Shown: positions 2,854 through 43,370 of the stretch, piece after piece
Numbering within the stretch: position 1 is the stretch's first letter
Layout: every line of letters begins with the position of its first letter
Assembly (NCBI GenBank): GCA_018303125.1
Contig: JAGVYS010000006.1
Coordinates: 1 to 44,277, forward strand
From: Candidatus Woesearchaeota archaeon
GTDB lineage: Archaea > Nanobdellota > Nanobdellia > Woesearchaeales > WJIZ01
Direction: 5' to 3'
Length of the DNA: 44,277 nucleotides
Made by a program: the position numbers and the translations under genes
The notes under the pieces: model-generated
The model's database searches: none
Told to the model about the DNA's origin: nothing
What the model saw: only the letters and a program-made list of their open reading frames with translations

Positions 2854-3379
2854 GTGGATTATTTATATGCCTTCTCCTTTTTTCAAGCCACTTGTAAACA
2901 GTTGCATGTGTGCTGCCTGATATGAGCATCTCTATTGCCTTGCGAGCTATCTGCGAGTTTTCTGTCTGACCTATTATTGAGATGGTCTTTCCGTATACTG
3001 AAACATAGCATTCTGTGAGTTCCTCAATTATTTTCCTTGTCTTTCCTTCGCTGCCTATTACCCTACCCTTAAGCCTTAGCTGGGCGTCCTTTGACTTTGA
3101 TGTATCTGAGAGTGTTATTGCCTCAAATGTGTAGTCGAGCTTCAGGAGCATGGCTGCTATTTCAGGGTTAAACCCCCTGCCTATGGCTGATATGACTTCT
3201 TTGGCAGTGTATATGCCAAGCCCATCCATGCCTCTGATAATTATATCTCCTTCTTTGGAATCTATTGACAAGGTAGTATTGGTTGTTTTTTCAATCTCTT
3301 TCCTTGTTTCTCCCTGCTTGCCTATAACTACCGCTATCCTTTCCTTCGGCACCTTGAGCTCGTATTGGAGTTCGTCCAT
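2840..3379 (-). CDS. KH-domain RNA-binding protein, archaeal Dim2/Pno1-like
   Basis: Two KH-like segments (VIGKQGETRKEIEKTT; RVIGSEGKTRKIIEELTECYVSVYG); located between rio1 and top6B. Confidence 0.88.
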   Translation of the reverse strand: MDELQYELKVPKERIAVVIGKQGETRKEIEKTTNTTLSIDSKEGDIIIRGMDGLGIYTAKEVISAIGRGFNPEIAAMLLKLDYTFEAITLSDTSKSKDAQLRLKGRVIGSEGKTRKIIEELTECYVSVYGKTISIIGQTENSQIARKAIEMLISGSTHATVYKWLEKRRRHINNPHGGF

Positions 3380-3404
3380 GATTTCACAGAAAAATACATG
3401 ATTT

Positions 3405-4112
3405 TTATAACTTGTGATAGGCTAATATTTTCTTCCTTGTTTCTTCCCTGTCTTCCTTAACGCCTAGCTTGGCGAAGAAATCACTGCAGTTCTTTATATC
3501 CCTAACAAGGTATTCTGCTGCCATCTGTGCTTCCAATGATATTCCTTGTGAAAAATCTATGAATACCGGCTCCTCATTATTATTAAGGATGTTAAACTGG
3601 GAAAGGTCACCGTGAACAATGCCTGCCTTGTATAATTGCCCCATTCCAATAATTACCTTGTCAAAAAACCGTTTAGGGTTTTCTGGTATGCTATCCTTAA
3701 GCTTTGGTGCCGGGCTTACGTCACCAATGTGTTCCATAACCAGAACGTTGTTCTGGAAGGTTATCGGCAATGGCACTCTAACGCCTGCCTCCCTTGCCTT
3801 AAGGAGGTTCCTGTACTCCCTTTGGACCCAAGCAAAGATTGTTTTCCTTCTTTTGCCCTTGAGGAAGCAATATCTTGTGTCTTGTTTTAGGTAATCGTAC
3901 ATTCGGTTGAAGTCGCATGTCTCAAGCCTGTAAATCTTCACTATTACCTTGCCTGATGATTTTTTGGCAGTGAAAACATTTGACTCCTTGCCTATTGCCA
4001 CGGGTGATTCTAGGCCTAAAAAATGGCCCTCAGAGATGAGCTTGAATATTGTCCTGTTTGTGAAATTATCAAACACAGAATGCATTGTTTTGAATTTTTC
4101 CCTGCCGGACAT
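3405..4112 (-). CDS. rio1: RIO1-family serine/threonine kinase
   Basis: IGKESNVFTAKK, YRNLLKAREAGVRVPLPI, VHGDLSQFNILNN and FIDFSQG RIO kinase motifs. Confidence 0.92.
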   Translation of the reverse strand: MSGREKFKTMHSVFDNFTNRTIFKLISEGHFLGLESPVAIGKESNVFTAKKSSGKVIVKIYRLETCDFNRMYDYLKQDTRYCFLKGKRRKTIFAWVQREYRNLLKAREAGVRVPLPITFQNNVLVMEHIGDVSPAPKLKDSIPENPKRFFDKVIIGMGQLYKAGIVHGDLSQFNILNNNEEPVFIDFSQGISLEAQMAAEYLVRDIKNCSDFFAKLGVKEDREETRKKILAYHKL

Positions 4113-4185
4113 GAACTAAGATTGGCATTTGCGTTTATAAATGTAGCATAAGTTGGATTAACTACTCTAAAATAGTTATAAAATA

Positions 4186-4199
4186 GAAACATTTATATA
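4186..4199 (+). promoter_or_regulatory. Archaeal BRE/TATA promoter for the dnaG leader or candidate ncRNA
   Basis: GAAAC followed by TTTATATA (4192-4199); expected start near 4220, about 420 nt before the dnaG ATG. Confidence 0.6.
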
Positions 4200-4219
4200 G
4201 ATGCATACTACTCTGGAGT

Positions 4220-4620
4220 AATCACCTCTTTTTCCCTAGCTAGGCTTCAAACGAGGCCTTTCTAGGGTTTTATGCTCAATTATCGATGAAAGTTGATTTA
4301 TCTAAATTCTTGCTTACTGTGTTCTAAAAACCATGAATTTTTAGTGTATCTGCTATCAAAAGATATATTTTTATACTAAAGAACATTTCTGAATCGTTAG
4401 ATTTAAATTAAATGACCTAAGGCAATAATCACGCCCGTCACGAGAGTACTCAATGGAGCTACGCTAAAAGCAGGCGATGAGCTTGGGAGTTAGTGCAACG
4501 GGCTTCAATTATATTAGGAAGAAAGTTGAGAATCTAATTTACATTCAATAACTCAATCATAAATCATAGATAGGCATAATAAATTGAGTTTCAACTTCTT
4601 TCTTAAAGCCTATAGGCTTA
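4220..4620 (+). ncRNA. Candidate structured RNA or long dnaG 5' leader (unassigned family)
   Basis: Long non-coding interval with strong upstream TATA and several hand-found helices: 4234-4245/4256-4267, 4319-4323/4382-4386, 4324-4330/4338-4344, 4433-4441/4493-4503, 4516-4529/4591-4603, 4550-4557/4583-4590. Confidence 0.45.
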
Positions 4621-4630
4621 ATTTGAAAAC

Positions 4631-4636
4631 GGAGGT
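4631..4636 (+). promoter_or_regulatory. Shine-Dalgarno of dnaG
   Basis: GGAGGT, 6 nt before the ATG at 4643. Confidence 0.8.
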
Positions 4637-4642
4637 ATAACA

Positions 4643-5899
4643 ATGGGAAAAGTAAGTCCTGTTTCGGCTAAATATATAGTTCATGCATTTATCAACATAG
4701 AAGGGGTAGTGGACAGGCCTGACGTTATAGGGGCAATTTTTGGCCAGACTGAAGGGCTTTTAGGGGCTGACCTTGAACTAAGGGAACTCCAAAGAAGCGG
4801 AAGAATAGGAAGAATAGAGGTTCTTACAGAGACAAAAACAGGGAAAACATCAGGAAAGATACTGATACCTTCTTCCCTTGACAAAGCTGAAACCGCGATA
4901 ATTGCAGCTGCACTGGAAATAATAGAAAGAATTGGACCGTGCAATGCCAAAGTAAAAACAGAAATGATTGAGGATGTCAGGATAAGCAAGAGGAAATTTG
5001 TTGTTGACAGGGCAAAGGAACTGCTGAAAGACCTCATGGACAAGTCAATACCTGACAGTCAGGAGCTGGCTGATGAGGTTGCATATTCGGTAAGGGTAAT
5101 GGAGATAACAGAGTATGGAAGCGAGAGGCTGCCTGCTGGGCCTGCCATAGATGAATCAGATGACATCTTAGTTGTGGAAGGAAGGGCAGATGTTATTAAC
5201 TTGCTGAAATGCGGCTTCAAGAATGCCATAGCTATGAACGGCACAAACATGCCGGAAACCATAGCTGACCTAAGCAGAAAGAAGACTGTAACCTTGTTTG
5301 TTGATGGCGACAGGGGAGGTAGCCTTATAATCAAGGAAGTGACCGAAAGGGCTGAAATTGATTTTGTTGCAAAGGCCCCTGACGGTAAAGAGGTAGAAGA
5401 GATAACAAAGAAGGAGATACACAACGCGCTTAGGGCCAAGATTTCAGCCGAGCAGGCTAAATTTGAGTCCGGAAAGGATACTGCGAATAGGCAACAGCCA
5501 AAGCCTGTGCAAAGGATGCCTTCGCGTTTCAATCCTGCACTGCCACCGCCGAGGCCATTGCCTCCCAGAGCTCCGCCTTTCCAGCAAAAGCCCAGAAGTG
5601 ACATAAACGAGAGTGAAAAAGGAGTTTTGCTCGGCATGCTGGAGAATCTTGTTGGAACAAGAGGGGCACAGCTACTTGATGCCAAGCTGAACATACTAGG
5701 CAAGGTTCCAGTAACTGAGATAGAACCAACGCTAAAGAGCCTTGGGATGGGAGTTCATGCCATTGTATTTGATGGGATAATTGAAAGGAGCGTTATTACA
5801 ACTGCTGAAAAAGCTGATGTGAAATTCCTTGTAGGCATGGATTCAAAAGTAAACCCAAGGGAGACTAAAATCGGGATACTCACTGCAAACAAGGTTTGA
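4643..5899 (+). CDS. dnaG: DNA primase DnaG (archaeal, Toprim)
   Basis: SAKYIVHAFINIEGVVDRPDVIGAIFGQTEGLLG; Toprim VVEGRADVINLLKCG and VTLFVDGDRGG. Confidence 0.95.
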   Translation: MGKVSPVSAKYIVHAFINIEGVVDRPDVIGAIFGQTEGLLGADLELRELQRSGRIGRIEVLTETKTGKTSGKILIPSSLDKAETAIIAAALEIIERIGPCNAKVKTEMIEDVRISKRKFVVDRAKELLKDLMDKSIPDSQELADEVAYSVRVMEITEYGSERLPAGPAIDESDDILVVEGRADVINLLKCGFKNAIAMNGTNMPETIADLSRKKTVTLFVDGDRGGSLIIKEVTERAEIDFVAKAPDGKEVEEITKKEIHNALRAKISAEQAKFESGKDTANRQQPKPVQRMPSRFNPALPPPRPLPPRAPPFQQKPRSDINESEKGVLLGMLENLVGTRGAQLLDAKLNILGKVPVTEIEPTLKSLGMGVHAIVFDGIIERSVITTAEKADVKFLVGMDSKVNPRETKIGILTANKV

Positions 5900-5957: not shown

Positions 5958-7103
5958 TTAACACTCATTAACTAGGCAGAAGAGTTCTTCTATATTATCT
6001 GCTGAGAGTGCCCCGCCTTTTTTGTATTTGTTGTTAAATACAAATACAGGGGCTGTGTTTATATAGAACTCAGATGCTGTCCTCATATCCTTTTCTAGCA
6101 GTGATTCTGCTTCGTTATCCATGCAGTCATCGATATTTTCCTCGTTTATGCCGTAGCTGCTAAGGCACTCAGAAAAATCTGAATCCTGTATGCATGCTGA
6201 ATAAGCCATGAGCTTTGAGTAAGACTCTTCTCGTATGCAGATCTGTCTCATAGTCTCTTCATCTGGAGAGCCCCTGACATAGTATCTTGGAAAAGCAGTA
6301 ACTTTCTTTTTTCCTGCGAATTCTATAAGGCTCTCCCATGCCTGCATTGATGGCGCGGAGTTTAGGGTAAGGAAAATGTCTATCCTGCCGGGCATTTCCC
6401 TTGCATCTAGAAAATATGCCGAACCTGATGCTGATGGCTTCATAAGATAGCCATCATCTGATTTTTCAAACGCTGATTTTGTTGAGCTAAACCTTGAATC
6501 TGACTCAACCTCATTGCCCATAATATAAGCAGGCAAAGCTCCAATATCATAATCGGAAATAAGCTTCTTGCCTTCTTCAGAGTCCTTGTCTACTAACCTG
6601 AAAACTGCTCCAGGATATATCTGCTTTAGAGTGTTCTGCATCCTACCGGAATCACATAATTCACAGCCTGCGAAGTTCACTATCGTGACATTAACTTCTT
6701 TTGCCTCTACATATCCACATGATGCGTTAAGGCATGTGCCTACAAAGCCATCCTTCTGGCAGTCTAAGTCAGTTGCACATTCAGGAATTGGCTGATTTAG
6801 AATGGCCTCTTCGTTTTTGTCGTGCGGCAATAATACTAGCAAGAGTATAACTACAATTGCTATAGCTGAAATCCAGTAGAACTTTCTTAAATCATTTTTT
6901 GCAGGTGGTTCATGCACTGTTGATTTATCTTCCTTCTTCTCTTGCTCTTCTGTTATTTTTTCTTCCTTGACTTCCTCTTTTGCAATGCTCTCCTGAACCC
7001 TTGCCTTAGCTGCCTCATACTCTTCCTTTGTAATGATGCCTGAGCTAAAGCTTTCTTCTATGAACTTGGACTCCCTTCTGAGCTTTTCTATATCAGGATT
7101 CAT
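5958..7103 (-). CDS. Membrane-anchored thioredoxin-fold protein with SHOCT-like N-terminus
   Basis: N-terminal SGIITKEEYEAAKARV (SHOCT-like), single TM FYWISAIAIVVILLLVLL, then VTIVNFAGCELCDSGRM CxxC thioredoxin-like segment. Confidence 0.7.
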   Translation of the reverse strand: MNPDIEKLRRESKFIEESFSSGIITKEEYEAAKARVQESIAKEEVKEEKITEEQEKKEDKSTVHEPPAKNDLRKFYWISAIAIVVILLLVLLPHDKNEEAILNQPIPECATDLDCQKDGFVGTCLNASCGYVEAKEVNVTIVNFAGCELCDSGRMQNTLKQIYPGAVFRLVDKDSEEGKKLISDYDIGALPAYIMGNEVESDSRFSSTKSAFEKSDDGYLMKPSASGSAYFLDAREMPGRIDIFLTLNSAPSMQAWESLIEFAGKKKVTAFPRYYVRGSPDEETMRQICIREESYSKLMAYSACIQDSDFSECLSSYGINEENIDDCMDNEAESLLEKDMRTASEFYINTAPVFVFNNKYKKGGALSADNIEELFCLVNEC

Positions 7104-8410
7104 ATTAATTCATCTAGAATCTTACTGAATTCTGTTATTTCAGACTCTTCGTTGAAAGCATCAAAGGCGTTTCCTGTCCTGGAATAGGAACATCCAAAGA
7201 CATAAGCAGGTACTGCCAACTTGGAGTCGTATTTCATTAGAACTGCAAATTCCTCGGCAGAGAGGGACTCTTCCTTGGCTATTGTTGCGAGGTCATCCCC
7301 TGTATCAAGCTCAATCTCTCTGACAACAACATCATATGAAGCCACTGCCTTCCTGAATGCCTGCTTTGCTTCACTGCACTTGCCGCAATTGGATGCCGTG
7401 TACATCCTTACTATCGGCTTGCCTGCCTCCTTGCACACTTCGTCACCTGTGCTGGCAAAATCATTCGCTTCTATTTGTGATGGCTGAGTTCCTTTTGTTA
7501 TGGTAGCCTTGCTCCTTAAAGATGAAATGTATACCTCTATTTCGCCTGATTGCTTCTGAGAGATTAATTCTTCCCTTATGGCATCTTTTACCTCGCTCAA
7601 TGGGATTATATTAGGGAGGCGCTTGATTATATGGTACCCGAAGCTCGTATTGACCGGCTTTGACAGCTCTCCTTCCTTAAGAGAAAATGCTGCATCCTCG
7701 AATTCCTTAATCATCGTTCCATTTGATATTATGCCAAGTTCTCCGTTGTTGTTCACTGCTGAATCATCCTTTGACCTCCTGACTGCGAGCTCTGCAAAAT
7801 CCTCCCCTTTATTAAGAAGTGAAAGCACTTCCATTGATTCATTCAGAGTATCTGAAAGTATATGCGCTACCCTCACCTGTCCTTCTCCTGCTGAAAATTC
7901 TTGGCTGTTGCCTGCATAAAATTCTGATATTTCGGATTCTGAAACTGTTATTTTTGAAAGAACTGTTGAATTGATAAGTTCAGTTATCATAAGCTGGTCT
8001 ATCACGTTTTTCTCTATTTCTTCAAGAGTTATATTTTGGCTTGCTATATAATCAGTGAATTCCTCAGTGGAAATAAATTGTGCCTTTATGGAATTTACAG
8101 CATCCGATACTTCCTCGCTGCTGGCAACCATGCCTGCCTTCTTTGCTTCCTGGATAAGCAGCTTCTGGTTTATAATCTGGTCAAGTACATCATTTTCAGA
8201 TATTATTTCCTTGTACGCTTCCGGAACCCTGGAATATGCATCCTTAAGCTCATCCATGGTAATAACTTCTCCATTGACGACAGCAGCCTGCTCCGCAGAT
8301 GCCTTGGGTGTGCTAGAAGACAGATAGTAAATTGCCCATATAAGAGCCACAACAAAAACTATTGAACCGATTATAATTGCCTTTTGCTTTCCGCTGTCTT
8401 TTTTTGCCAT
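7100..8410 (-). CDS. Membrane-anchored SurA/PpiC-type peptidyl-prolyl isomerase fused to a thioredoxin-like domain
   Basis: N-terminal TM; SurA_N-like VNGEVITMDELKDAYSRVPEAYK; parvulin VAHILSDTL...FGYHIIKRLP; C-terminal VRMYTASNCGKCSEAKQAF. Confidence 0.85.
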   Translation of the reverse strand: MAKKDSGKQKAIIIGSIVFVVALIWAIYYLSSSTPKASAEQAAVVNGEVITMDELKDAYSRVPEAYKEIISENDVLDQIINQKLLIQEAKKAGMVASSEEVSDAVNSIKAQFISTEEFTDYIASQNITLEEIEKNVIDQLMITELINSTVLSKITVSESEISEFYAGNSQEFSAGEGQVRVAHILSDTLNESMEVLSLLNKGEDFAELAVRRSKDDSAVNNNGELGIISNGTMIKEFEDAAFSLKEGELSKPVNTSFGYHIIKRLPNIIPLSEVKDAIREELISQKQSGEIEVYISSLRSKATITKGTQPSQIEANDFASTGDEVCKEAGKPIVRMYTASNCGKCSEAKQAFRKAVASYDVVVREIELDTGDDLATIAKEESLSAEEFAVLMKYDSKLAVPAYVFGCSYSRTGNAFDAFNEESEITEFSKILDELI

Positions 8411-30736: not shown

Positions 30737-31336
30737 ATGTCAGAAGGAGAATTACTTTTACCACAGGAAGAATATCTAAAGTCCGGGATACATATAGGAA
30801 CAAAGTTCAGGACAAAGTATATGGCTGACTTCATATACAAGACAAGACCTGATGGGCTCTCTGTCCTTAACCTGCAGAAGATAGATGACAGGATAAGGTT
30901 CGCGGCTAACATGCTCTCAAAGTATGAGGCAAAAGGAATACTTATTGCTTCCAGAAGGGAAAACTCATGGAAACCTGTAAAGTTGTTCGGAAAGGTTACT
31001 GGGGCAACGGTATTTGCGGGAAGATACACTCCTGGAACCCTTACGAACCCAAGGCTAAGGGAGTTCATAGAAGCCAAGATACTTCTTGTTACAGACATAT
31101 GGCCTGACAGGTTTGCGATTGCTGATGCCAACAAAGTAGGAATACCGGTAATTGCTCTCTGCGATACTAATAACCAGCCGAATGACATTGACCTTGTTGT
31201 GCCATGCAACAACAAAGGCAAAAAAAGCCTGGGAGTTATATTCTGGCTTCTTGCAAGGGGATACCTCAGGAAAAGAGGAGTAATAGGAGAAAAAGAAGAT
31301 CTCAAAGAAACAATAGACGCATTTACAGAAGAATGA
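30737..31336 (+). CDS. rps2: 30S ribosomal protein S2
   Basis: LLPQEEYLKSGIHIGTKFRTKYM, FAGRYTPGTLTNP, DTNNQPNDIDLVVPCNNKGKKSLG. Confidence 0.95.
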   Translation: MSEGELLLPQEEYLKSGIHIGTKFRTKYMADFIYKTRPDGLSVLNLQKIDDRIRFAANMLSKYEAKGILIASRRENSWKPVKLFGKVTGATVFAGRYTPGTLTNPRLREFIEAKILLVTDIWPDRFAIADANKVGIPVIALCDTNNQPNDIDLVVPCNNKGKKSLGVIFWLLARGYLRKRGVIGEKEDLKETIDAFTEE

Positions 31337-31338
31337 TT

Positions 31339-32334
31339 TTAGATTAGGCGCTTGAGGTCCTCAATAGCATTCTGAAGCTTTTTATTCTCGAAAATGACCT
31401 TGTAGGATTGCCTTACCAATGGCAATGATATGTCATGTTTTTCAGCATACTCATGCACAGCCTTGCATGTTGGTATCCCCTCGGCTACCATGCCATGCAT
31501 CTCCTCGTTTATCTTCTCCAGGCTATATCCTTTTGCAATTAGCTCTCCTGCTCTCCTGTTCCTTGACTTAGCTGATGTGCATGTTGCAACAAGGTCACCG
31601 ACTCCTGCAAGGCCGTAGCAGGTTTCCTGCTTGCCTTTAAAGTGCCTGCTTACTTTTACCATTTCCCTGAGGCCAAGAGTGATTATTGCGCCGGATGCAT
31701 TGTCGCCCAAGCCAAGAGATGAGATTATACCGGTTGCAATTGCTGTTATGTTTTTCATGGCACCGCATATTTCAACACCTATGACATCATCATGCGGATA
31801 CACCTTGAAATAGCTGCACTCGAATGTGCTCTTAATTATTTTTTCAGGGATGTTTTTTGAAGCTATTACAGTAGCGGTTGGGATTTTCCTGCTTACTTCC
31901 TCTGCATGATTCGGACCAGAAAGCACCCCCAACATAGAGATATTAAGCTCTTCCCTTATTACTTGGGACATTAGCTTCATTGTATTTAGCTCAAGCCCCT
32001 TTGCAGCATTGATGACGATACATTCTTTTGCCACATTTCCTTTTATGCTCCTCAAATTCTCCCTGAGGAATTGCGAAGGAATAGCAGTTACTATCAGCCC
32101 TGCACCGGAAACTGCTGCCCTTTCATCTGATGTGGGAGAGACATTCCTAGAAAGCTTTATTCCTGGCAGGTATTTTGTATTTTCCCTTTTTTCCCTTATT
32201 GAACTGGATATCTCCTCTTCCCTTGCCCAAAGGATGACTTCCTTTCCTGTGTTATCGGCAATAATACTAGCGAGAGTTGTACCCCAGCTTCCTGCCCCGA
32301 GCACTGCTATCTTCATAGAATCAATCCCTGTCAA
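31339..32334 (-). CDS. gpsA: NAD(P)-dependent glycerol-3-phosphate dehydrogenase (GpsA family)
   Basis: IAVLGAGSWGTTLASIIADN, SGPNHAEEV, GAMKNITAIATGIISSLGLGDNASGAIITLGLREM, TCYGLAGVGDLVATC. Confidence 0.95.
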   Translation of the reverse strand: MTGIDSMKIAVLGAGSWGTTLASIIADNTGKEVILWAREEEISSSIREKRENTKYLPGIKLSRNVSPTSDERAAVSGAGLIVTAIPSQFLRENLRSIKGNVAKECIVINAAKGLELNTMKLMSQVIREELNISMLGVLSGPNHAEEVSRKIPTATVIASKNIPEKIIKSTFECSYFKVYPHDDVIGVEICGAMKNITAIATGIISSLGLGDNASGAIITLGLREMVKVSRHFKGKQETCYGLAGVGDLVATCTSAKSRNRRAGELIAKGYSLEKINEEMHGMVAEGIPTCKAVHEYAEKHDISLPLVRQSYKVIFENKKLQNAIEDLKRLI

Positions 32335-32962
32335 AAGTATATTCCTGATTTGAGAGGCTGGCTATATTTACCATAACTTCGGTTGTTAGTTTCCTTAACA
32401 GCCTCTTGTCGGCATTTTTTGAATAATAACTATCAAGATGAATCGGCTTTCCTATATTTAAATCTGCTTTTTTACCAAACTTTGGAATTCTCCTGCCTTT
32501 TGGGAGTATGTAAAAAGTGTTTGTAAGACCAATTGGAATTACCGGAACCCTTGCTTCCAAAGCAAGCCTTACCACGCCAGTTTTTGCCCTGCTCATCTTT
32601 CCTGTAAGGGTCCTTGTGCCCTCTGGGTATATCATTATGAGCTCACCTTTTCTGAGACATTCCGCTGCCTTATGCAATGCATCCTCGCCTCCTGCTTGCC
32701 TGTCTAGAGGTATGGCGCCTAGGTAATTGTGCCACATCCTCTCAAAAGGAGAATAAAAATGCTCTTTCTTTGCGAGAGTCCTGAACGGCCTTTTTGCCTT
32801 CCTCACAAATGCGCACCCAATTATCAAGTGGTCCAGATAGGATGAGTGATTGGCGGCTATTATTGCTCCTCCTTTTTTTGGAACATTCTCTATGCCCCTT
32901 ACTTTTCCTGTGAAAGGAAGAAGCACCAGCTTCACAATGAAAGAGATTATCTGATATTTCAT
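32321..32962 (-). CDS. 1-acyl-sn-glycerol-3-phosphate acyltransferase-like (PlsC family)
   Basis: HX4D motif ANHSSYLDHLIIG and IYPEGTRTLTG. Confidence 0.92.
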   Translation of the reverse strand: MKYQIISFIVKLVLLPFTGKVRGIENVPKKGGAIIAANHSSYLDHLIIGCAFVRKAKRPFRTLAKKEHFYSPFERMWHNYLGAIPLDRQAGGEDALHKAAECLRKGELIMIYPEGTRTLTGKMSRAKTGVVRLALEARVPVIPIGLTNTFYILPKGRRIPKFGKKADLNIGKPIHLDSYYSKNADKRLLRKLTTEVMVNIASLSNQEYTFDRD

Positions 32963-33600
32963 TTTGCTATCAAAAAGGATATTTTCCCCATTATTTCGTC
33001 TGTTATTTTTCTAAGCGTATTATAATCTTTGCTTCCGTAGTATTTCTCAAATGTCATGGGCTTCCCTATACTTATGTCAAACCTCCTGAACCTCGGGAAC
33101 TTTGCACCCTTTGGAAAAACATTATGCGAGCCAATGATAGCTATAGGAAGAACAGGGACCTTTGATTTCAGAGCTACAGTTGCCACTCCTGTTTTTCCTT
33201 CCCTTAAAGTGCCATTGTTCCTGCCTCCTTCCGGGAAGATGCCAAATATATCTCCCCGTGCAAGAAACCTTACTGCATCTTCAATTGCCTTCTCATTCGT
33301 TTTGTTTCTTTTTTCGGCATCCTTCACATCCTTGCTTACATCCACCTTAATGCAGCCAAAATGGTCAAGAAAAAGTTTAAAGAAAACATTGCTGTAATAC
33401 CTTGAATTTACGAAAATATGGAATTTCTTCTTCGCAAACCTTGTGATAAGGTAAGGAATGGCCAAATCATCAAGGTAGGATGAATGGTTAGCCACTGCTA
33501 TAAACGGCCTATCTCTTGGAATGTTTTCATGGCCTTCTATCTTCCTTGTGTACATCCTTACAAAATTTCCCAGAAAAAACCTCCCGAACGGGTATACCAT
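32959..33600 (-). CDS. 1-acyl-sn-glycerol-3-phosphate acyltransferase-like (PlsC family), second copy
   Basis: HX4D motif ANHSSYLDDLAIP and IFPEGGRNNGTLREGKTGVATVAL. Confidence 0.92.
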   Translation of the reverse strand: MVYPFGRFFLGNFVRMYTRKIEGHENIPRDRPFIAVANHSSYLDDLAIPYLITRFAKKKFHIFVNSRYYSNVFFKLFLDHFGCIKVDVSKDVKDAEKRNKTNEKAIEDAVRFLARGDIFGIFPEGGRNNGTLREGKTGVATVALKSKVPVLPIAIIGSHNVFPKGAKFPRFRRFDISIGKPMTFEKYYGSKDYNTLRKITDEIMGKISFLIAK

Positions 33601-34789: not shown

Positions 34790-35049
34790 AGCCTGAGATA
34801 AGAAAACCCACTGAAGCAGAAAATAAAGAAGCAGGAGCATGGCCAATATGGGAAAAGGAAGTGAGCGAATTCGAGTGGGAATATGATTCAAGGGAAATAT
34901 GCCTTATTCTCGAAGGACAGGCAGATGTGACAAATGAAAGCAATGAAAAATTTTCTTTTGGAAAAGGAGACTATATCATATTCCCGAAGGGAATGAAGTG
35001 CACATGGAAGGTAAACAAAAAGATAAAGAAGCATTACAATTTCGACTAA
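34786..35049 (+). CDS. Small cupin (EutQ/DUF861-like)
   Basis: CLILEGQADVTNESNEKFSFGKGDYIIFPKGMKCTWKV. Confidence 0.82.
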   Translation: MKPEIRKPTEAENKEAGAWPIWEKEVSEFEWEYDSREICLILEGQADVTNESNEKFSFGKGDYIIFPKGMKCTWKVNKKIKKHYNFD

Positions 35050-35780
35050 AACATAATTCCGCCGTCTACCTTTATAACAGCGCCTGTTATATACCTTGCT
35101 TTTTCTGATGCGAGGAAAGCTGCAAGGTTAGCAATGTCTTCAGGCATTCCCATCTCCTTGAGAGGTATTAGCATGAGTATCTTTGAGGCCATCTCAAGAG
35201 GCATCTGGTCTGTAAGCTCTGTCTTTATGAATCCTGGAGCGATTACATTGACTGTTATTTTTCTCTTGCCAAGCTCCTTTGCAAGGGATTTTGAGAAGCC
35301 TATGATTCCTGCCTTTGAGCTTGCATAGTTTGTCTGGCCGAAATTGCCAGAAATTCCTATAATTGAACTTATGTTTATTATCCTGCCATTATCCTTTATG
35401 ATGTCCAATAAGTTCCTGGTAACATTAAAGACAGAATTTAAATTTACGTTGATAATCCTGCTCCAGTCTTCAAGAGACATGTTTTTGAGAGAACGATCGC
35501 ATGTTGTACCTGCATTGTTGACAAGAATATCAATATGTGAAAAACTTTTCTTGACCTCTGCTCCAAGCGTCTCGCAGCTTTTGAAATCAGAAACATCTGC
35601 AGCTATGAATTCGGACTTGACGCCCAATGCAACTATTTCCTTTACGACTTCCTTTCCCTGAGCTGCTGATTTTTCTGTGCCATTGATTATGACATCACAG
35701 CCTTCTTTAGCAAGAGCAAGAGCTATTGCCCTGCCTATTCCCCTTGTAGAGCCTGTGACCAATGCCTTTTTCCCTTTCAT
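35046..35780 (-). CDS. fabG: SDR 3-oxoacyl-thioester reductase (FabG-like)
   Basis: KALVTGSTRGIGRAIA, VNNAGTT, NYASSKAGIIGFSKSLAKEL, NVIAPGFIKTELT; start placed 8 nt after GGAGG. Confidence 0.92.
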   Translation of the reverse strand: MKGKKALVTGSTRGIGRAIALALAKEGCDVIINGTEKSAAQGKEVVKEIVALGVKSEFIAADVSDFKSCETLGAEVKKSFSHIDILVNNAGTTCDRSLKNMSLEDWSRIINVNLNSVFNVTRNLLDIIKDNGRIINISSIIGISGNFGQTNYASSKAGIIGFSKSLAKELGKRKITVNVIAPGFIKTELTDQMPLEMASKILMLIPLKEMGMPEDIANLAAFLASEKARYITGAVIKVDGGIMF

Positions 35781-35793
35781 CTGCATGACCTCC

Positions 35794-36759
35794 TTAAGAC
35801 CTGATAGCTGAAACATACACCCACTCGCATGTGAAGCTGGATGAGTCTGCCATGGCATTAGTTTCCTCAAGCTCCTTGAAAAGCTTGTATGCTGCAAGCG
35901 TTATCAGCTTGTCCCTTGCAGCTTCCTCCTCAGGAGAGGCCTCTTTGCCGCCTACTTCAGGAAGAATCCCTGCCTGTAGCCTGTGAACCCTGAGAAAATT
36001 CAGCCAGTCAGTGTACCTTATTTTTATCAGCTTGTAGAAAGTTGTCAGGTTGCGAAAGCCAGCTTCCTTCAGTGTGCTGAGGTATGTTTCAAGGTTTCTT
36101 GGCGCAGGGAAAACAAAACTCCTCTGCTCCTTCTCTTTCTCTATATTTTCCTGGAGCTTTGCCCTGTATGACCTGAACTCATCATTATTCCTTATAATGT
36201 CAAGGGCTATGTCATGCACCCTGTTTATTGTGTCATCGACCATAAGCACGCCTTCTTTCCTCCCATTGCGAAGTATGTTGCCGCTCTGAAAAGTTATTGT
36301 TCCATCTTCCTTGAGTGCATTCCGCATGTCAGAAAACGTTCCATGAAGGTCAGGAACAAGATGAAGCGTATTTGCAGATATAACATGGTTGACTGTTCCT
36401 GTTCCCACTGTCTCTGCAAGTGTTGCGAAGCCGTTGCCTACTTTTTCTAGCAGGAATAGCTCGACATTTGGATTTCCCTTGAAAATCTCGTATGCCTTCC
36501 CTAGCCATGCTGCAGAGTTGTCAACAAGCCAGAGCTTGAAATTCACTTTTATCTCATTTAGTAGACAAATAGATGACGCACCAGTCCCTGCGCCGAAATC
36601 CAGAACTATATCCTTGTCTTTTATCTTTTCCCTTACAATCTTGGCAAGCTCTTTAAGATTCTCTATATAGTATTCTGCATCTACAACAGCATCATGGTAA
36701 CCTGATGCGCCTTTTGAAACCGGCTTTGTGGGGCCCCATGGTTTAGCAACATCTGCCAT
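35794..36759 (-). CDS. Class I SAM-dependent methyltransferase
   Basis: VLDFGAGTGASSICLL (motif I), LWLVDNS, ISANTLHLVPDL. Confidence 0.82.
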   Translation of the reverse strand: MADVAKPWGPTKPVSKGASGYHDAVVDAEYYIENLKELAKIVREKIKDKDIVLDFGAGTGASSICLLNEIKVNFKLWLVDNSAAWLGKAYEIFKGNPNVELFLLEKVGNGFATLAETVGTGTVNHVISANTLHLVPDLHGTFSDMRNALKEDGTITFQSGNILRNGRKEGVLMVDDTINRVHDIALDIIRNNDEFRSYRAKLQENIEKEKEQRSFVFPAPRNLETYLSTLKEAGFRNLTTFYKLIKIRYTDWLNFLRVHRLQAGILPEVGGKEASPEEEAARDKLITLAAYKLFKELEETNAMADSSSFTCEWVYVSAIRS

Positions 36760-36798: not shown

Positions 36799-37923
36799 TT
36801 ATGCTTTCTTAAGTATGTGGTTGGCAACTGTGCCACCCGCACCCCCTATGCTCTGTGCCATTGCTATGCTTGCCTTGCTAACCTGCCTGTCTCCTGCTTC
36901 TTTCCTGAGCTGCTTCACCAATTCATAAATCTGGCCGAGCCCTGTTGCAGAAAGAGGATGGCCTTTTGCCTTGAGCCCTCCTGAGGTGTTAACGGGAAGT
37001 TTTCCGTCAAGCTCGAAATATCCGTCTTCTATTTTCTTGTATGCCGTGCCTTTCTTGGAGAATCCCAAATCTTCATAGGCTATGAGCTCAACTATGGAGA
37101 ATGCATCGTGAATCTCAGCTATATCTATGTCTGAATGGTCAATACCTGCTTGCTTATATGCTGTGCCTGCACTTGTGACTGATGCATTCCATGAAGTATT
37201 ATCTTCCCTTTCAAAGGTTGACATGTAATCTGTTGAAAGCCCTGCTCCGATAATTTTTATGTCTGCCTTGTCTTTTGAGAGGACAACAGCAGAACCGCCA
37301 TCTGCGGAAACAGAACAGTCAAAAACCCTAAGGGGAGAGCATACAAGCGGAGAGGACCTTATTTTCTCGAGGCTTATTTTGGTATTATAGAATTTTGCCT
37401 TTGGATTAGAGTATGCATTATTGTGATTCTTGAATGCAATAAGGGAAAGATGGTCATGAGTTGTTTCTGGGTATTTGAGCATGTATTCCTGGGCAACCAT
37501 GGCATTCTGGGCAGGAAAATTAAAGCCTTCTGTCTGCTCCCACTTTGACTCTGCTGCCATCATGAATTCCTCTGTTATGGCCTCAGACTTGCAGGTCATG
37601 AGCTTTTCTGCGCCCACAACAAGGACATTGTCAAAATCCTGCTGCTGTGCAAACCATAGGCCTGCGCCACTGCTCCCACATGCAGCCGGAATCCTTACAA
37701 TTGGCTTGTGCGTCTTGAAAATAGAAGAAAGCATGCTTTCAAAATGCCTTTGCTTCTCCAATGAAAAAAACCATTCTATGGAGGAGCATACCACTGCGTC
37801 AATCTCTGAGAAAGAAATGCCTGCATCATCCAGTGCTTCCTGTGCTGCATCGTATGCAAGCTGGTGGGAAGACTTATCTGAAATCCCAAATTTCGTCATT
37901 CCGGCTCCCTTGATGTACATCAT
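36799..37923 (-). CDS. SCP2-type thiolase / acyl-CoA acyltransferase (copy 1)
   Basis: Active-site Cys IPAACGSSGAGLW; EIHDAFSIVELIAYEDLGF; GGLKAKGHPLSATG; SIGGAGGT. Confidence 0.9.
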   Translation of the reverse strand: MMYIKGAGMTKFGISDKSSHQLAYDAAQEALDDAGISFSEIDAVVCSSIEWFFSLEKQRHFESMLSSIFKTHKPIVRIPAACGSSGAGLWFAQQQDFDNVLVVGAEKLMTCKSEAITEEFMMAAESKWEQTEGFNFPAQNAMVAQEYMLKYPETTHDHLSLIAFKNHNNAYSNPKAKFYNTKISLEKIRSSPLVCSPLRVFDCSVSADGGSAVVLSKDKADIKIIGAGLSTDYMSTFEREDNTSWNASVTSAGTAYKQAGIDHSDIDIAEIHDAFSIVELIAYEDLGFSKKGTAYKKIEDGYFELDGKLPVNTSGGLKAKGHPLSATGLGQIYELVKQLRKEAGDRQVSKASIAMAQSIGGAGGTVANHILKKA

Positions 37924-39050
37924 GCTGCCTTACCAATAAGCTTTGAGCCAATGGGCTGCTTTATGTCCCTCCTTAAGGCCTCAAGCTCATTTCCGATAAA
38001 CTTAATCCTGCTCGCATCAGACTGGCCATAGCCAAGCTGTGCTGCAAGCTCCACATAAGGAACTTTTCTAAGGCAGAATATCTCCTTAACTGCCGTGTCA
38101 TGCACAACTGGATTCCTGGCGGCTAGGATTAGGTTAAAGAATCCCGGCTCCCCGTAATTGGCAGGCCCATTTCCCTGCAAGCCTATTGATGCATCTCCCA
38201 GTGTAAAGAAAGGAGGGAATACCTTAGGGAATACTGCTAGTGCCAATGCTGCTTTTTGTGGGTCTGATGAATATTTTTCAAAAGTCTTTTTTGAGAGGAA
38301 CCTTATCATGTTCTCAAAAGCACCATCAATGCCAAGCACCATGTCGGTCTTTATTACAGGCACATTTATCACGAGGCCAGCATCAAAAACTGCCTTTGAT
38401 ATCTCAAACTCAAAGTCCCTTTCCTTTTTCTTGATAAATTCTGTTTTTGATAAGTCAAGAATCTTTACCTTGTGCTTCTTTGCTACTTCAACAAGGCCTG
38501 ATTTTGAAATAGACTCTTCGAAAGGCATGAAAAAGTTCTGCTCTGCTATGGTTATGCTTTCAGGCTTTGCGCCCTTATCCTTAATGAGATACTGGAGCAA
38601 GGCATCTATGACTTTGGGGTTTGTGCACATTCCCAGGTAGGAATGGCCTGGAATGCTCATGTTAGGCTTGATTAGAATGCTCTTGCCTAGCTTTAGCCCT
38701 CCTGTAAGCTCTATGGCTTCGGACACAGCCTCATAAAAATCATATTTTAATTTAACAATCGCAACTGCAGAGTCTGATGAATCTGGTATGTCCTGATAAA
38801 CATCGCCTATATTATAATCCTTCATTGTTTTTTTAGGCATCCTGTTGCCAAGCTCATCCTCAAGCATGATGACATTGTAAGGAACAATGGGATGAAGTGG
38901 ATTTGGTATGAATATTTTTGTAAATCCCACTACTTTAACTTTATTAGTAACTACCTTTGCTATTTTTTCCCCGTCATATATGCACTTCTCGACAGGATGT
39001 ATCCATTTCCTTCCACACTTGCTGCATTTCCATCTAATTATGCGTACCAT
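37920..39050 (-). CDS. DUF35-like Zn-ribbon/OB fold fused to a DUF362 domain
   Basis: N-term RWKCSKCGRKWIHPVEKC...VVGFTKIFIPNPLHPIVPYNVIMLEDELGNRM. C-term KSILIKPNMSIPGHSYLGMCTNP...LVINVPVIKTDMVLGIDGAFENMIRF...GDASIGLQGNGPANYGEPGFFNLILAARNPVVHDTAV. Confidence 0.8.
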   Translation of the reverse strand: MVRIIRWKCSKCGRKWIHPVEKCIYDGEKIAKVVTNKVKVVGFTKIFIPNPLHPIVPYNVIMLEDELGNRMPKKTMKDYNIGDVYQDIPDSSDSAVAIVKLKYDFYEAVSEAIELTGGLKLGKSILIKPNMSIPGHSYLGMCTNPKVIDALLQYLIKDKGAKPESITIAEQNFFMPFEESISKSGLVEVAKKHKVKILDLSKTEFIKKKERDFEFEISKAVFDAGLVINVPVIKTDMVLGIDGAFENMIRFLSKKTFEKYSSDPQKAALALAVFPKVFPPFFTLGDASIGLQGNGPANYGEPGFFNLILAARNPVVHDTAVKEIFCLRKVPYVELAAQLGYGQSDASRIKFIGNELEALRRDIKQPIGSKLIGKAA

Positions 39051-39054
39051 TTTC

Positions 39055-40185
39055 TCACCTTTTCCTGAATATGTTTACGGCGCAAGTTCCTCCTGCGCCC
39101 CCTATGTTATGGGCAAGCCCATATTTTGCGGATTTGACCTGCCTCGCACCGCATCTTCCTCTCAGCTGCTCGACTATCTCATATATCTGCGCCAATCCGG
39201 TTGGAGAGATTGGGTGGCCTCTTGCTTTAAGCCCTCCTGAGGTATTTACAGGAAGCTTTCCATCAAGGTTCACTATGCCCTTCCTTATCATGTCCTTGCC
39301 ATGCCCTTTTTTGCAGAATCCCAAATCTTCATACGCTATGAGCTCAACTATGGAAAATGCATCATGAATCTCAACTACATCTATGTCTGAAGGCTCAATA
39401 CCTGCTTGCTTAAATGCATCCGTCCCTGCATTTATAGTGGAATCCCATTTTGTCATGTCATCCCTTTCGAACGGCGCAATATAGTCTGTTGCAAGACCTG
39501 AACCCATAACCTCAACATCAGATGGGTCTGAAGATATAACCGCTGCTGCTGCACCATTCACAGTCATTGAGCAGTCAAAGAGATTAAAGGGAGTTGCAAT
39601 CATAGGGCCTTTCCTTATATCTTCAAGGGAAACCTTTTTGCCATAAAATGGTGCCTTTGGGTTAAGGCTTCCGTTGTAATGGTTCTTATACGCTATAAGC
39701 TCAAGGTCTTCATGGGTTGTACCATACTTTAGAATGTGCTGCTGGGCTACCAGAGCATTTTGTGCAGGAAAAATAAGGCCTTCATCCTGCTCCCACATAT
39801 TTTCCCCTGCTGCCATTATCTCCTTTGTTATGAGGTTTGTTGGCGCTGCCGCAACTTTATCAACACCAACAACAAGGACATTATCATATTTTAGCCTTAG
39901 GGCAGACCAAAGTGCTGTTCCGCCACCACCACATACTGCAGGTACCCTTATTATGGGCATTTTGCGCCTTACCAGGGATGCAAGCAGTGGAGAATAGTGC
40001 CTCTGCCTCTCATCATTCACCTTAGTATCTGAGTTGGAGATTACTATTGCACCCATATCATCTATGCCCATACTGGCATCATTAAGGGCATCAGTTATTG
40101 CCTCATAGGCCATGCTCATAGTTGTTCTGTCATCTACACTGAACTTAGTCATACCTACGCCATGCACATATTTCTTTGAAACCAT
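39055..40185 (-). CDS. SCP2-type thiolase / acyl-CoA acyltransferase (copy 2)
   Basis: VPAVCGGGGTALW; EIHDAFSIVELIAYEDLGF; GGLKARGHPISPTG; HNIGGAGGT. Start set at MVSKKYVHG. Confidence 0.9.
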   Translation of the reverse strand: MVSKKYVHGVGMTKFSVDDRTTMSMAYEAITDALNDASMGIDDMGAIVISNSDTKVNDERQRHYSPLLASLVRRKMPIIRVPAVCGGGGTALWSALRLKYDNVLVVGVDKVAAAPTNLITKEIMAAGENMWEQDEGLIFPAQNALVAQQHILKYGTTHEDLELIAYKNHYNGSLNPKAPFYGKKVSLEDIRKGPMIATPFNLFDCSMTVNGAAAAVISSDPSDVEVMGSGLATDYIAPFERDDMTKWDSTINAGTDAFKQAGIEPSDIDVVEIHDAFSIVELIAYEDLGFCKKGHGKDMIRKGIVNLDGKLPVNTSGGLKARGHPISPTGLAQIYEIVEQLRGRCGARQVKSAKYGLAHNIGGAGGTCAVNIFRKR

Positions 40186-40192
40186 TTTAGCA

Positions 40193-40687
40193 TTACCTGG
40201 AAGAAAATTTTGACCTGAATCTTGCTTTATCAACTATTGCCAAAGTAAAGGATGCCTTGGCTACTTCCCTGTCCCGTACCTTAGCAATGGCCTTCATAAC
40301 CCCGCCTTTGCTGTTTTTTCTCTTAAGGCTTACTTCAAGCCTCAACTCATCCCCTGGCAGGGTAGGATACATGAACTTGATGCCCTTCATCTTATAAGCC
40401 AATATATCCTTTTCCTCATGCCCATCTATATTATATCTTAGGAGCAATGTTCCGGCTTGCCCCATTCCTTCAACTATAAGTGCTCCTGGCATGATTGGGA
40501 AACCAACAAAATGTCCTTTGAAAAACTCTTCTTCTGGCCTGACCTTCTTCACTGCTATAATCTTGCCTTTTTCAAGCTCAAGAACCTTATCTATCATAAG
40601 GAAAGGGTGCTCATAAGGTATTATTTTCTTGATGGCTTCCTCATTTAGCTGGCCATTCCCATCCTTAAGGTCATCAATAAGAACCAC
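40193..40687 (-). CDS. fabZ: FabZ-like 3-hydroxyacyl-thioester dehydratase
   Basis: IIPYEHPFLMIDKVLELEKGK, FFKGHFVGFPIMPGALIVEGMGQAG hotdog-fold motifs. Confidence 0.9.
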   Translation of the reverse strand: MVLIDDLKDGNGQLNEEAIKKIIPYEHPFLMIDKVLELEKGKIIAVKKVRPEEEFFKGHFVGFPIMPGALIVEGMGQAGTLLLRYNIDGHEEKDILAYKMKGIKFMYPTLPGDELRLEVSLKRKNSKGGVMKAIAKVRDREVAKASFTLAIVDKARFRSKFSSR

Positions 40688-40827: not shown

Positions 40828-42690
40828 ATGGTCAGGAGGATAATAAGGGTTCTCAACGCCTCCCTAAAACCTGTAGAGGCGGCTTATCGCAAGCTGAAAG
40901 ATGTTTTAAGGAAAACAAAGAACAGGGTTCCAAATGTCTTCAGCGAGATAGAGGTATTTCTGAAAAACCATTTCATAAGCATTGAATCTGGAAAGAGCTT
41001 AAGGAACAGCCCTAATTTTGGCAAATTGTCTGAGACTATAGCTGCAAACATTGCAAAAAAGATACCTTACATAGATGAAGGGAAGCTGGATAAAATTATC
41101 ATGGACAAATCCTCTAGCTCATTCTTAGACATGCTAACAATAGGCTTGGGAAAGGGGGAACATAAGGAATTTACAAAGATAAAGAAGGAGAAGCTGTTCA
41201 AGAAGATACTGATAGCTAACAGGGGAGAAATTGCGTTAAGGGTAATAAGGGCATGCAGGGAAATGGGCATATCAACTGTTCAAGTTTATACAAAGCCTGA
41301 TGCAAAGTCACTTTCTGTCAAGTTCGCTGATAAGTCTGTAAAGCTGGGCAATGAGGCTTCTGCCTATCTTGACATGCATAAGATAATCAAAATTGCAAAA
41401 AAGCTGAAGGTTGATGCAATCCACCCTGGATATGGCTTTCTTTCAGAGAACGCTGATTTTGCAAAGCTTTGCAAAGAGAACAAGGTCAAGTTCATAGGGC
41501 CATCACATAAGATAATTACTGCAATGGGAGACAAGGTAAATGCCAGGAAGCTTGTAAAGAAGGAAGGCATACCTGCCCTTGAGGGAACTGACCATGTTAT
41601 TGTTGATGCAATAAAAGGAATGGAGATTGCAAAATCCATAGGATTCCCTGTAATAATAAAGGCTGCTGCAGGAGGAGGGGGCAGGGGCATGAGAGTCGTA
41701 AAGAATGAGGCAGAGTTTGAAAGCTGCTTTGCGGCATGCCAGGCTGAAGCGGAATCGTCATTCAAGAACAAGGATGTTTTCATTGAGAAATATTTATTAG
41801 ACCCAAGGCACATAGAGTTCCAGATACTTGCTGACAGCAAAGGAAATGTCATCCATCTGGGAGAGCGTGACTGCTCCATACAGAGAAGGCATCAGAAACT
41901 CCTTGAGGAAGCACCAAGCCCTGCGATGAATCCAGAGCTTAGGGAAAGGATGGGAGAGGCTGCCTTGAAAATTGCAAAGGCAATAGGCTATGAGGGTGCA
42001 GGCACTATTGAATTCCTGCTTGACAATGCCAATAATTTCCATTTCATAGAGATGAATACAAGAATACAGGTTGAGCATGGAATAACAGAAATGATAACAG
42101 GTATTGACCTTGTCAGGGAGCAGATAAAGATTGCTGCTGGCGGTGAACTCTCAAGGACACAAGCTGATGTAGAGATAAGCGGATGGGCAATTGAGTGCAG
42201 GATAAATGCGGAATGCCCAACAGATGGCTTCTGCCCTGTAACAGGAACTATAGTAAATTATCTTCCGCCTGGTGGCCCGGGCATAAGGGTATGCTCATCC
42301 TGCCATGCAGGACAGGAGGTAAACCCTCATTATGACTCCATGCTCGCAAAGCTTATGTGCTGGGGAGAAACAAGAACAGAAGCAATGGATAAGATGCAAA
42401 GGGCGCTTAACGAATTCATAATAGAGGGGATTGACACAACAATTCCATTCCATAGAGTGGTATTGACAACACCAGCATTCATAAAAGGTGACATAACAAC
42501 ATCATTCATAGAGAAGAACCATATCATGGAAAGGGTAAAGAAAGAAAGCAAAAAGAAGATTCTCACTAAAGAAGAGAAGGCTGTCATAATAACAACTGCT
42601 GTATCCGGTTATATGAACAAGAACAGGTTCAATGACAAGCAAGGCGCATGGGTCAAGGCCGCAAGGCAGGAAGCCGTGTTCCAGGAATAA
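40828..42690 (+). CDS. accC: Biotin carboxylase with about 124-aa N-terminal extension
   Basis: KKILIANRGEIALRVIRACREMGI, HPGYGFLSENADFAKLC, AAAGGGGRGMRVV, FIEMNTRIQVEHGITEM. Confidence 0.94.
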   Translation: MVRRIIRVLNASLKPVEAAYRKLKDVLRKTKNRVPNVFSEIEVFLKNHFISIESGKSLRNSPNFGKLSETIAANIAKKIPYIDEGKLDKIIMDKSSSSFLDMLTIGLGKGEHKEFTKIKKEKLFKKILIANRGEIALRVIRACREMGISTVQVYTKPDAKSLSVKFADKSVKLGNEASAYLDMHKIIKIAKKLKVDAIHPGYGFLSENADFAKLCKENKVKFIGPSHKIITAMGDKVNARKLVKKEGIPALEGTDHVIVDAIKGMEIAKSIGFPVIIKAAAGGGGRGMRVVKNEAEFESCFAACQAEAESSFKNKDVFIEKYLLDPRHIEFQILADSKGNVIHLGERDCSIQRRHQKLLEEAPSPAMNPELRERMGEAALKIAKAIGYEGAGTIEFLLDNANNFHFIEMNTRIQVEHGITEMITGIDLVREQIKIAAGGELSRTQADVEISGWAIECRINAECPTDGFCPVTGTIVNYLPPGGPGIRVCSSCHAGQEVNPHYDSMLAKLMCWGETRTEAMDKMQRALNEFIIEGIDTTIPFHRVVLTTPAFIKGDITTSFIEKNHIMERVKKESKKKILTKEEKAVIITTAVSGYMNKNRFNDKQGAWVKAARQEAVFQE

Positions 42691-43370
42691 TGCATATACA
42701 CAATATAAGGAAAACTGATTCTACAAACAGGCTTGCCAGGAAGTACAAGCCAGGAACAGTGATAAGGTCTGCTATTCAATCATCGGGAGTAGGAAGGTTT
42801 GGCAGGAAGTGGGTATCTGATTCTGGCGGATTATGGTTCTCAATAGTGCTAAAGCCTGAAAGGAAGCTTTGCGAGTATACCTTCATAGCCTCACTTGCTG
42901 TCCTTGATGCAATAGGCAAGAAAGCTGAGATAAAGTGGCCAAATGACCTTGTTTACAAAGGGGAAAAACTTTGCGGGATACTTACAGAGATACATTCCTC
43001 AGGAAATACCGTAAAGAAGGTAATTGTCGGCATAGGCCTAAATGTGAATAATGATGCTCCTTCTGGGGGTGTTTCCCTTAAGGAGATAATGGGGCATGAA
43101 ATCAACATTGATGAGCTTCTTAGAAAAATAGTTGAAAATTTCATAAAAATTTCAAAGTTAAGCATCTCTTCCATAATAGCTATGTACAGGAAAAAATGCT
43201 CCATGCTCGGAAAAATGGTGACTGCATCTACCTTGGAGGGAACGTTCTATGGAAAAGCTGCTGGAATAGATGACGAGGGTAATTTAATACTGGAAACAAA
43301 TAAAGGAGTAAAGAAGCTTACAGAGGGAGATGCTACTTTAGGATATTCCTTACCTCATCAGGCACATTAA
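42690..43370 (+). CDS. birA: Biotin-protein ligase (no HTH domain)
   Basis: TDSTNRLARKY, GRFGRKWVSDSGGLWFSIVLKP, KWPNDLVYKGEKLCGILTE; ATG overlaps the accC stop. Confidence 0.92.
   Translation: MHIHNIRKTDSTNRLARKYKPGTVIRSAIQSSGVGRFGRKWVSDSGGLWFSIVLKPERKLCEYTFIASLAVLDAIGKKAEIKWPNDLVYKGEKLCGILTEIHSSGNTVKKVIVGIGLNVNNDAPSGGVSLKEIMGHEINIDELLRKIVENFIKISKLSISSIIAMYRKKCSMLGKMVTASTLEGTFYGKAAGIDDEGNLILETNKGVKKLTEGDATLGYSLPHQAH

Follow-up and report, generated by a model that had tools for sequence, protein, structure and literature searches.

Does a cluster of gpsA and two plsC-like genes allow an archaeon to build its membrane from fatty acyl chains on sn-glycerol-3-phosphate (G3P)? Few traits separate archaea from bacteria as clearly as the backbone chirality and the tail chemistry of their membrane lipids, and the known archaeal exceptions considered here, MGII and Lokiarchaeota, retain a part of the ether-lipid route. 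In MGII the G1P dehydrogenase (G1PDH) is absent and the GGGP and DGGGP synthases (GGGPS, DGGGPS) are kept (PMC6962369), and GpsA, PlsC and PlsY have been reported to occur sporadically in archaea, including DPANN (PMC6431249). We analyzed such a cluster in a Woesearchaeal archaeon (DPANN). The window, that is the whole stretch of 44,277 nucleotides under study, is contig C53 of a metagenome-assembled archaeal genome (MAG) of 1.35 Mb, which is 94.7% complete in 54 contigs. A preliminary description of the locus had proposed a capacity for G3P acyl-ester lipids, either mixed or bacterial-like. We find this capacity supported and consider it probable from the gene content that the cluster represents the front end of a chimeric pathway to diacyl-glycerol-3-phosphate lipids; purely G3P-ester lipids appear likelier than mixed ones, which look less likely, and the gene set also departs from the standard bacterial pathway.

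The gpsA-plsC-a-plsC-b cluster

gpsA and the two plsC-like genes form one cluster on the minus strand (Table 1), and family scores, motifs and the conserved gene order confirmed the earlier view that all three are real and contiguous. GpsA contains the domains PF01210 (179.7 bits) and PF07479 (178.9 bits) and reaches 375 bits with the NCBIfam subfamily model NF000942, the cut-off of which is 257. Its GxGxWG nucleotide motif as well as K107, K189-N190, D242, T246 and R253-N254 are intact and invariant in an alignment of 10 sequences, W12 being the exception with a conservation of at least 90%. The catalytic roles of the residues K107, K189-N190, D242, T246 and R253-N254 are presumably those of GPD1. 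The active site is thus not degenerate, and GpsA is supported as the predicted maker of G3P.

Table 1: Features of the window (positions in the window; –, minus strand; +, plus strand).
Feature	Position	Strand	Remark
Archaeal ribosomal protein uS2	30737..31336	+	convergent with gpsA; a conserved anchor for the cluster
gpsA, NAD(P)-dependent sn-glycerol-3-phosphate dehydrogenase	31339..32316	–	start at ATG 32316, more likely than TTG 32334
plsC-a, PlsC/AGPAT-type acyltransferase	32321..32962	–	motif I NHSSYLD, motif III YPEGTR
plsC-b, second PlsC-type acyltransferase	32959..33600	–	NHSSYLD, FPEGGR
fabG, 3-oxoacyl reductase	35046..35789	–	ORF extends to TTG at 35897; domain starts near 35783
Methyltransferase	35794..36759	–	conserved beside fabG in relatives
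Thiolase A, SCP2/archaeal-type	36799..37923	–	proposed acyl-chain condensing enzyme
DUF35-like (zinc ribbon + OB fold) N-terminus fused to DUF362 (LarA-like)	37920..39050	–	proposed thiolase partner
Thiolase B, SCP2/archaeal-type	39055..40233	–	
fabZ, 3-hydroxyacyl dehydratase (FabA/FabZ hot-dog)	40193..40687	–	
Biotin carboxylase-like protein	40828..42690	+	carboxyltransferase gene on contig C10
Biotin protein ligase	42648..43370	+	

PlsC-a and PlsC-b reach 114.6 and 87.8 bits with PF01553 (cut-off 23), both fall under the cut-off of the narrower model TIGR00530, and both possess the HX4D and PEGxR motifs. For each of them the 1-acyl-G3P acyltransferase 5kym is the sole PDB match. As the genome encodes only these two PF01553 proteins, both acylations would fall to them if phosphatidic acid is made, and because PlsY was not found either, PlsC-b is a candidate enzyme for the first acylation. 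An assignment of PlsC-b as G3P acyltransferase via its EGGR motif was rejected, as the residue varies in the orthologues (G, A, T, S, H or K).

Two overlaps had been described within the cluster. The one of 4 nt between plsC-a and plsC-b is real, the one of 14 nt between gpsA and plsC-a is probably not, as it requires the TTG start; for most gpsA orthologues the alignment begins with the ATG at 32316, a start that leaves a gap of 4 nt. uS2 does adjoin gpsA, with 2 nt separating the convergent genes (ends at 31336 and 31339) instead of the 3 nt given before, and approximately 1.45 kb separate the start of plsC-b and the end of fabG, in agreement with the distance of about 1.5 kb to the acyl-assembly operon.

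Host, synteny and the origin of GpsA

Besides uS2, the contig of the cluster encodes topoisomerase VI and a RIO kinase, and the named relatives are MAGs of Woesearchaeota or Nanoarchaeota. All six relatives analyzed from the same family possess a GpsA with 60–64% identity and two adjoining PF01553 genes. In three genomes from other families GpsA is 52–55% identical, with both plsC genes beside gpsA in G035 and G037 and one in G015, and the order plsC-plsC-gpsA is present in 8/9 related genomes from four families. In 17 of 19 named Woesearchaeota or Nanoarchaeota loci (L118–L136) gpsA is directly preceded by both plsC genes, with a broken reading frame in one of the 17; the exceptions are L125, the contig of which ends inside plsC-a, and L123, which is without plsC in the 1.8 kb present. 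In 18 of the 19 loci uS2 lies near gpsA, and it is usually faced by the cluster; 13 loci have fabG nearby and 12 have thiolases, these counts being limited by the contig ends. Since the same gene order is kept in many species at 49–64% GpsA identity, chance can be excluded.

The bacterial relatives of the enzymes could also point to bacterial contamination or a chimeric contig. However, we regard this as highly improbable, as uS2 and topoisomerase VI lie on the same contig, the same arrangement recurs in many independent MAGs, the cluster is located beside uS2 in those assemblies of close relatives that were inspected, and the Woesearchaeal GpsA forms a clade of its own. The contig is archaeal, and the concern of a bacterial chimera raised with the preliminary description is not borne out. 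In the phylogenetic analysis the Woesearchaeal GpsA sequences are monophyletic and stand beside the bacterial ones, which were sampled as the 60 best matches, the clade receiving an SH-aLRT support of 100 when the tree was built quickly and of 96/96 in a more careful analysis. The simplest reading of these trees would be one bacterial-type origin of GpsA followed by vertical descent. Sister to the Woesearchaeal clade is the GpsA from Euryarchaeota archaeon 0813_bin23 (L137), the gene of which has no plsC neighbours.

Ether-lipid and bacterial-type lipid genes in the genome

A search for the ether-lipid core had been suggested before. GGGPS (PF01884) was found in none of 40 genomes of the order but in 4/4 control archaea; two borderline matches from the family of the window are HisA-like and were rejected. 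G1PDH was not found in the genome by the PF13685 family search, as the two matches are an iron alcohol dehydrogenase from a likely phosphonate cluster and AroB (3-dehydroquinate synthase), the latter encoded in a shikimate operon, and those matches inspected in relatives are likewise AroB or alcohol dehydrogenases. From the two UbiA proteins of the genome one is closest to DPPR synthase and the other is a weak match, neither approaching the cut-off for DGGGPS. Compared to the archaeal ether-lipid pathway (G1PDH, GGGPS, DGGGPS, CarS), CarS and the CDP-alcohol transferases are shared, whereas of the three enzymes ahead of CarS, G1PDH and GGGPS were not found and no DGGGPS was recognised. In a MAG with 94.7% completeness and 54 contigs each absence carries some risk, which is lessened since the six relatives agree for GGGPS, PlsY and the acyl carrier protein (ACP).

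Regarding the bacterial genes, the suggested search had a mixed outcome: phosphatidyl transferases are present, but PlsX, PlsY and CdsA were not found. PlsY is missing from the genome and from the six relatives of the same family, a phosphopantetheine-carrier domain (ACP) was detected in 0/7 genomes of this family, and the sole PF01148 match of the genome is the CarS gene itself, leaving no separate CdsA. By tblastn, a less powerful search for which the E. coli proteins were the queries, PlsX, FabD, FabH and a PS decarboxylase were not found in the genome. With canonical bacterial phospholipid synthesis the genome has GpsA, the PlsC family, PssA, the PgsA/ClsA-type transferases and FabG/FabZ/FabI in common; it differs not only in the genes named as missing (PlsX, PlsY, CdsA, ACP, FabD and FabH) but also in CarS replacing CdsA and in a thiolase-DUF35 condensing system. 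FabI is encoded on contig C15, and contig C20 carries DXR and a polyprenyl synthase together with DXS and further MEP genes, the last two as read from the sequence only. Dxr is present in 10/10 cluster-bearing vs 4/30 other genomes of the order and strong FabI matches in 7/10 vs 0/30, both counts not being corrected for relatedness.

The isoprenoid genes allow for a different product. An unrecognised prenyltransferase could place an isoprenoid on G3P, with PlsC adding one acyl chain and CarS keeping its isoprenoid preference; CarS, the polyprenyl synthase, the MEP genes and two UbiA proteins are all available for this, and such chimeric lipids have been proposed earlier for MGII (PMC6962369) and Lokiarchaeota (PMC6737245). 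We nevertheless judge them quite unlikely here, as GGGPS occurs in 0/40 genomes of the order, the UbiA proteins are a nearest relative of DPPR synthase and a weak match, and the presence of two acyltransferases in each cluster agrees with two acyl chains. MGII and Lokiarchaeota do resemble the present case, being archaea that encode PlsC homologues and have putative genes for fatty acids (PMC6962369, PMC6737245, PMC6431249). Unlike here, where GGGPS was not found and no DGGGPS was recognised, they keep the GGGP and DGGGP synthases, and it is here that gpsA is clustered with two plsC genes.

Lipids or lysolipids might also be taken up from a host, in which case PlsC would only re-acylate them and GpsA would serve redox balance or glycerol metabolism. 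Most DPANN genomes are without lipid synthesis and are thought to be host-dependent (PMC6470261), and with PlsY the canonical first acyltransferase is missing. Against such a salvage or remodelling, which we consider unlikely, stand the synteny that links GpsA to the two acyltransferases across many species, the fatty-acid genes close by, a head-group operon elsewhere in the genome, and the tryptophan and shikimate pathway genes, which show that the genome is not strongly reduced.

Acyl-chain supply, CarS and the proposed route

For the synthesis of diacyl lipids acyl chains are needed, and the acyl-chain operon of the window offers a possible source. The N-terminal domain of the DUF362 protein has no Pfam match, but in an AlphaFold model of the protein (mean pLDDT 81, six sequences) this part matches DUF35 proteins that serve as subunits in thiolase complexes (6ok1, 7pyt, 6esq), the rest matching LarA-like racemases with low TM-scores. 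The fusion of DUF35 to a LarA-like DUF362 between two thiolases recurs in relatives. Because no ACP was found, the acyl chains are likely provided by a CoA-linked thiolase-DUF35 system using the bacterial-type FabG, FabZ and FabI. A different set is present near gpsA in G015 (L238 on its contig C8), including a KAS III/HMG-CoA-synthase-like gene, a thiolase, a MaoC-like gene, FabG, a holo-ACP synthase and a large protein of the acyl-activating type that contains an ACP domain, and the acyl supply thus varies within the clade.

The preliminary description had left it possible that no other phospholipid gene exists, but contig C21 carries an operon of PssA, CarS and a ClsA/PgsA fusion with CarS in the middle. 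CarS reaches 157.9 bits with the NCBIfam equivalog model (cut-off 148) and can be aligned to the known CarS structure 5guf, with which it has the catalytic motif in common; a two-domain CDP-alcohol transferase adjoins CarS in four genomes of the same family as well. CarS is encoded in 9/10 cluster-bearing vs 13/30 other genomes (counts not corrected for relatedness) and is therefore not tied to the cluster. Altogether 22/40 genomes of the order have CarS and GGGPS was detected in none. Motif changes peculiar to the cluster-bearing genomes were not seen in the active-site stretch of CarS, and a search for CarS among viral contigs found nothing.

Taken together, the following route can be proposed. 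The two thiolases and their DUF35-DUF362 partner would condense CoA-linked acyl chains without ACP, which would be reduced by FabG, dehydrated by FabZ and reduced again by FabI. GpsA would convert DHAP into G3P, and the two PlsC-type enzymes would acylate its positions 1 and 2 to give phosphatidic acid, with no involvement of PlsX, PlsY or PlsB. The archaeal CarS (CDP-archaeol synthase), in place of CdsA, would then form CDP-diacylglycerol from phosphatidic acid, to which PssA and the fused ClsA/PgsA-type protein would attach the head groups. The sequences themselves show the genes with their families and active-site motifs, their conservation and synteny, and that the searches did not detect the ether-lipid core. 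We infer the order of these reactions, which PlsC acts first, the use of CoA instead of ACP thioesters and the action of CarS on phosphatidic acid. Bacterial PlsY and PlsC take both enantiomers of glycerol phosphate (PMC13400652), so the acyltransferases alone do not set the chirality and GpsA would do so.

CarS is the weakest step of the proposed route. The purified enzyme from A. fulgidus has a strong preference for the isoprenoid (digeranylgeranyl) substrate over phosphatidic acid and failed to complement an E. coli cdsA mutant, while work with membrane fractions showed little selectivity between ester and ether bonds or between G3P and G1P (review PMC9385802). In view of this preference, the model requires a CarS with a changed preference for the tail. 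For the wider proposal that this clade of Woesearchaeales made a full swap of G1P isoprenoid-ether for G3P fatty-acyl membranes, with CarS re-targeted to phosphatidic acid, two PlsC-type enzymes using CoA thioesters for both acylations and a thiolase-DUF35 system without ACP, we see the chances as even.

Parts of this gene set have been seen in the lineage before. As far as the accessible parts of the two reports go, Woesearchaeota are reported to have MEP genes close to UbiA, some of the genomes also with a bacterial G3P dehydrogenase (PMC8204110), and DPANN from oxygen-deficient zones to have FabG, FabI and FabZ as well as genes of the MEP pathway and for cyclopropane fatty-acid phospholipids (PMC10936187). 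The lineage and a number of the genes are thus those of the present case, whereas these parts do not describe the plsC-plsC-gpsA cluster or the CarS operon, nor the missing PlsX, PlsY, CdsA and ACP or the synteny across families. In the accessible literature, to which most subscription papers and preprints do not belong, we found neither the chimeric route as a whole nor the conserved cluster nor the link to CarS described, and the novelty of the route, the synteny and the CarS link is therefore provisional.

Judged by their genes, archaea of this clade may have crossed the lipid divide with CarS doing the middle step. If true, a lipid switch would be possible in a living archaeon, through the apparent loss of three core enzymes and the gain of a linked ester-lipid set, and CarS would be named as the enzyme whose specificity had to change. 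Questions on early membranes and the origin of eukaryotes would become testable by complementation and lipidomics, and the view that Woesearchaeota must get their lipids from hosts would be altered.

Further genes of the genome touch on lipids and the cell envelope. On contig C39 (L116) a gene for a BtaA-like DUF3419 protein (193 bits; 3736–4782, minus strand) overlaps a diacylglycerol-kinase-like gene (2986–3765, plus strand), a pair that hints at betaine or homoserine lipids derived from diacylglycerol; strong BtaA-like matches are present only in this genome (G000) and G035 out of 40 genomes, with a weak one in G020. The window itself encodes at 7100–8410 a SurA/PpiC-type peptidyl-prolyl isomerase, a bacterial-type envelope chaperone on an archaeal contig. 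Finally, a likely phosphonate cluster, possibly for the decoration of the envelope, is located on contig C41 (L114:339–3904), where a fusion of PEP mutase with a cytidylyltransferase-like domain is encoded together with a decarboxylase-like protein and the iron alcohol dehydrogenase.
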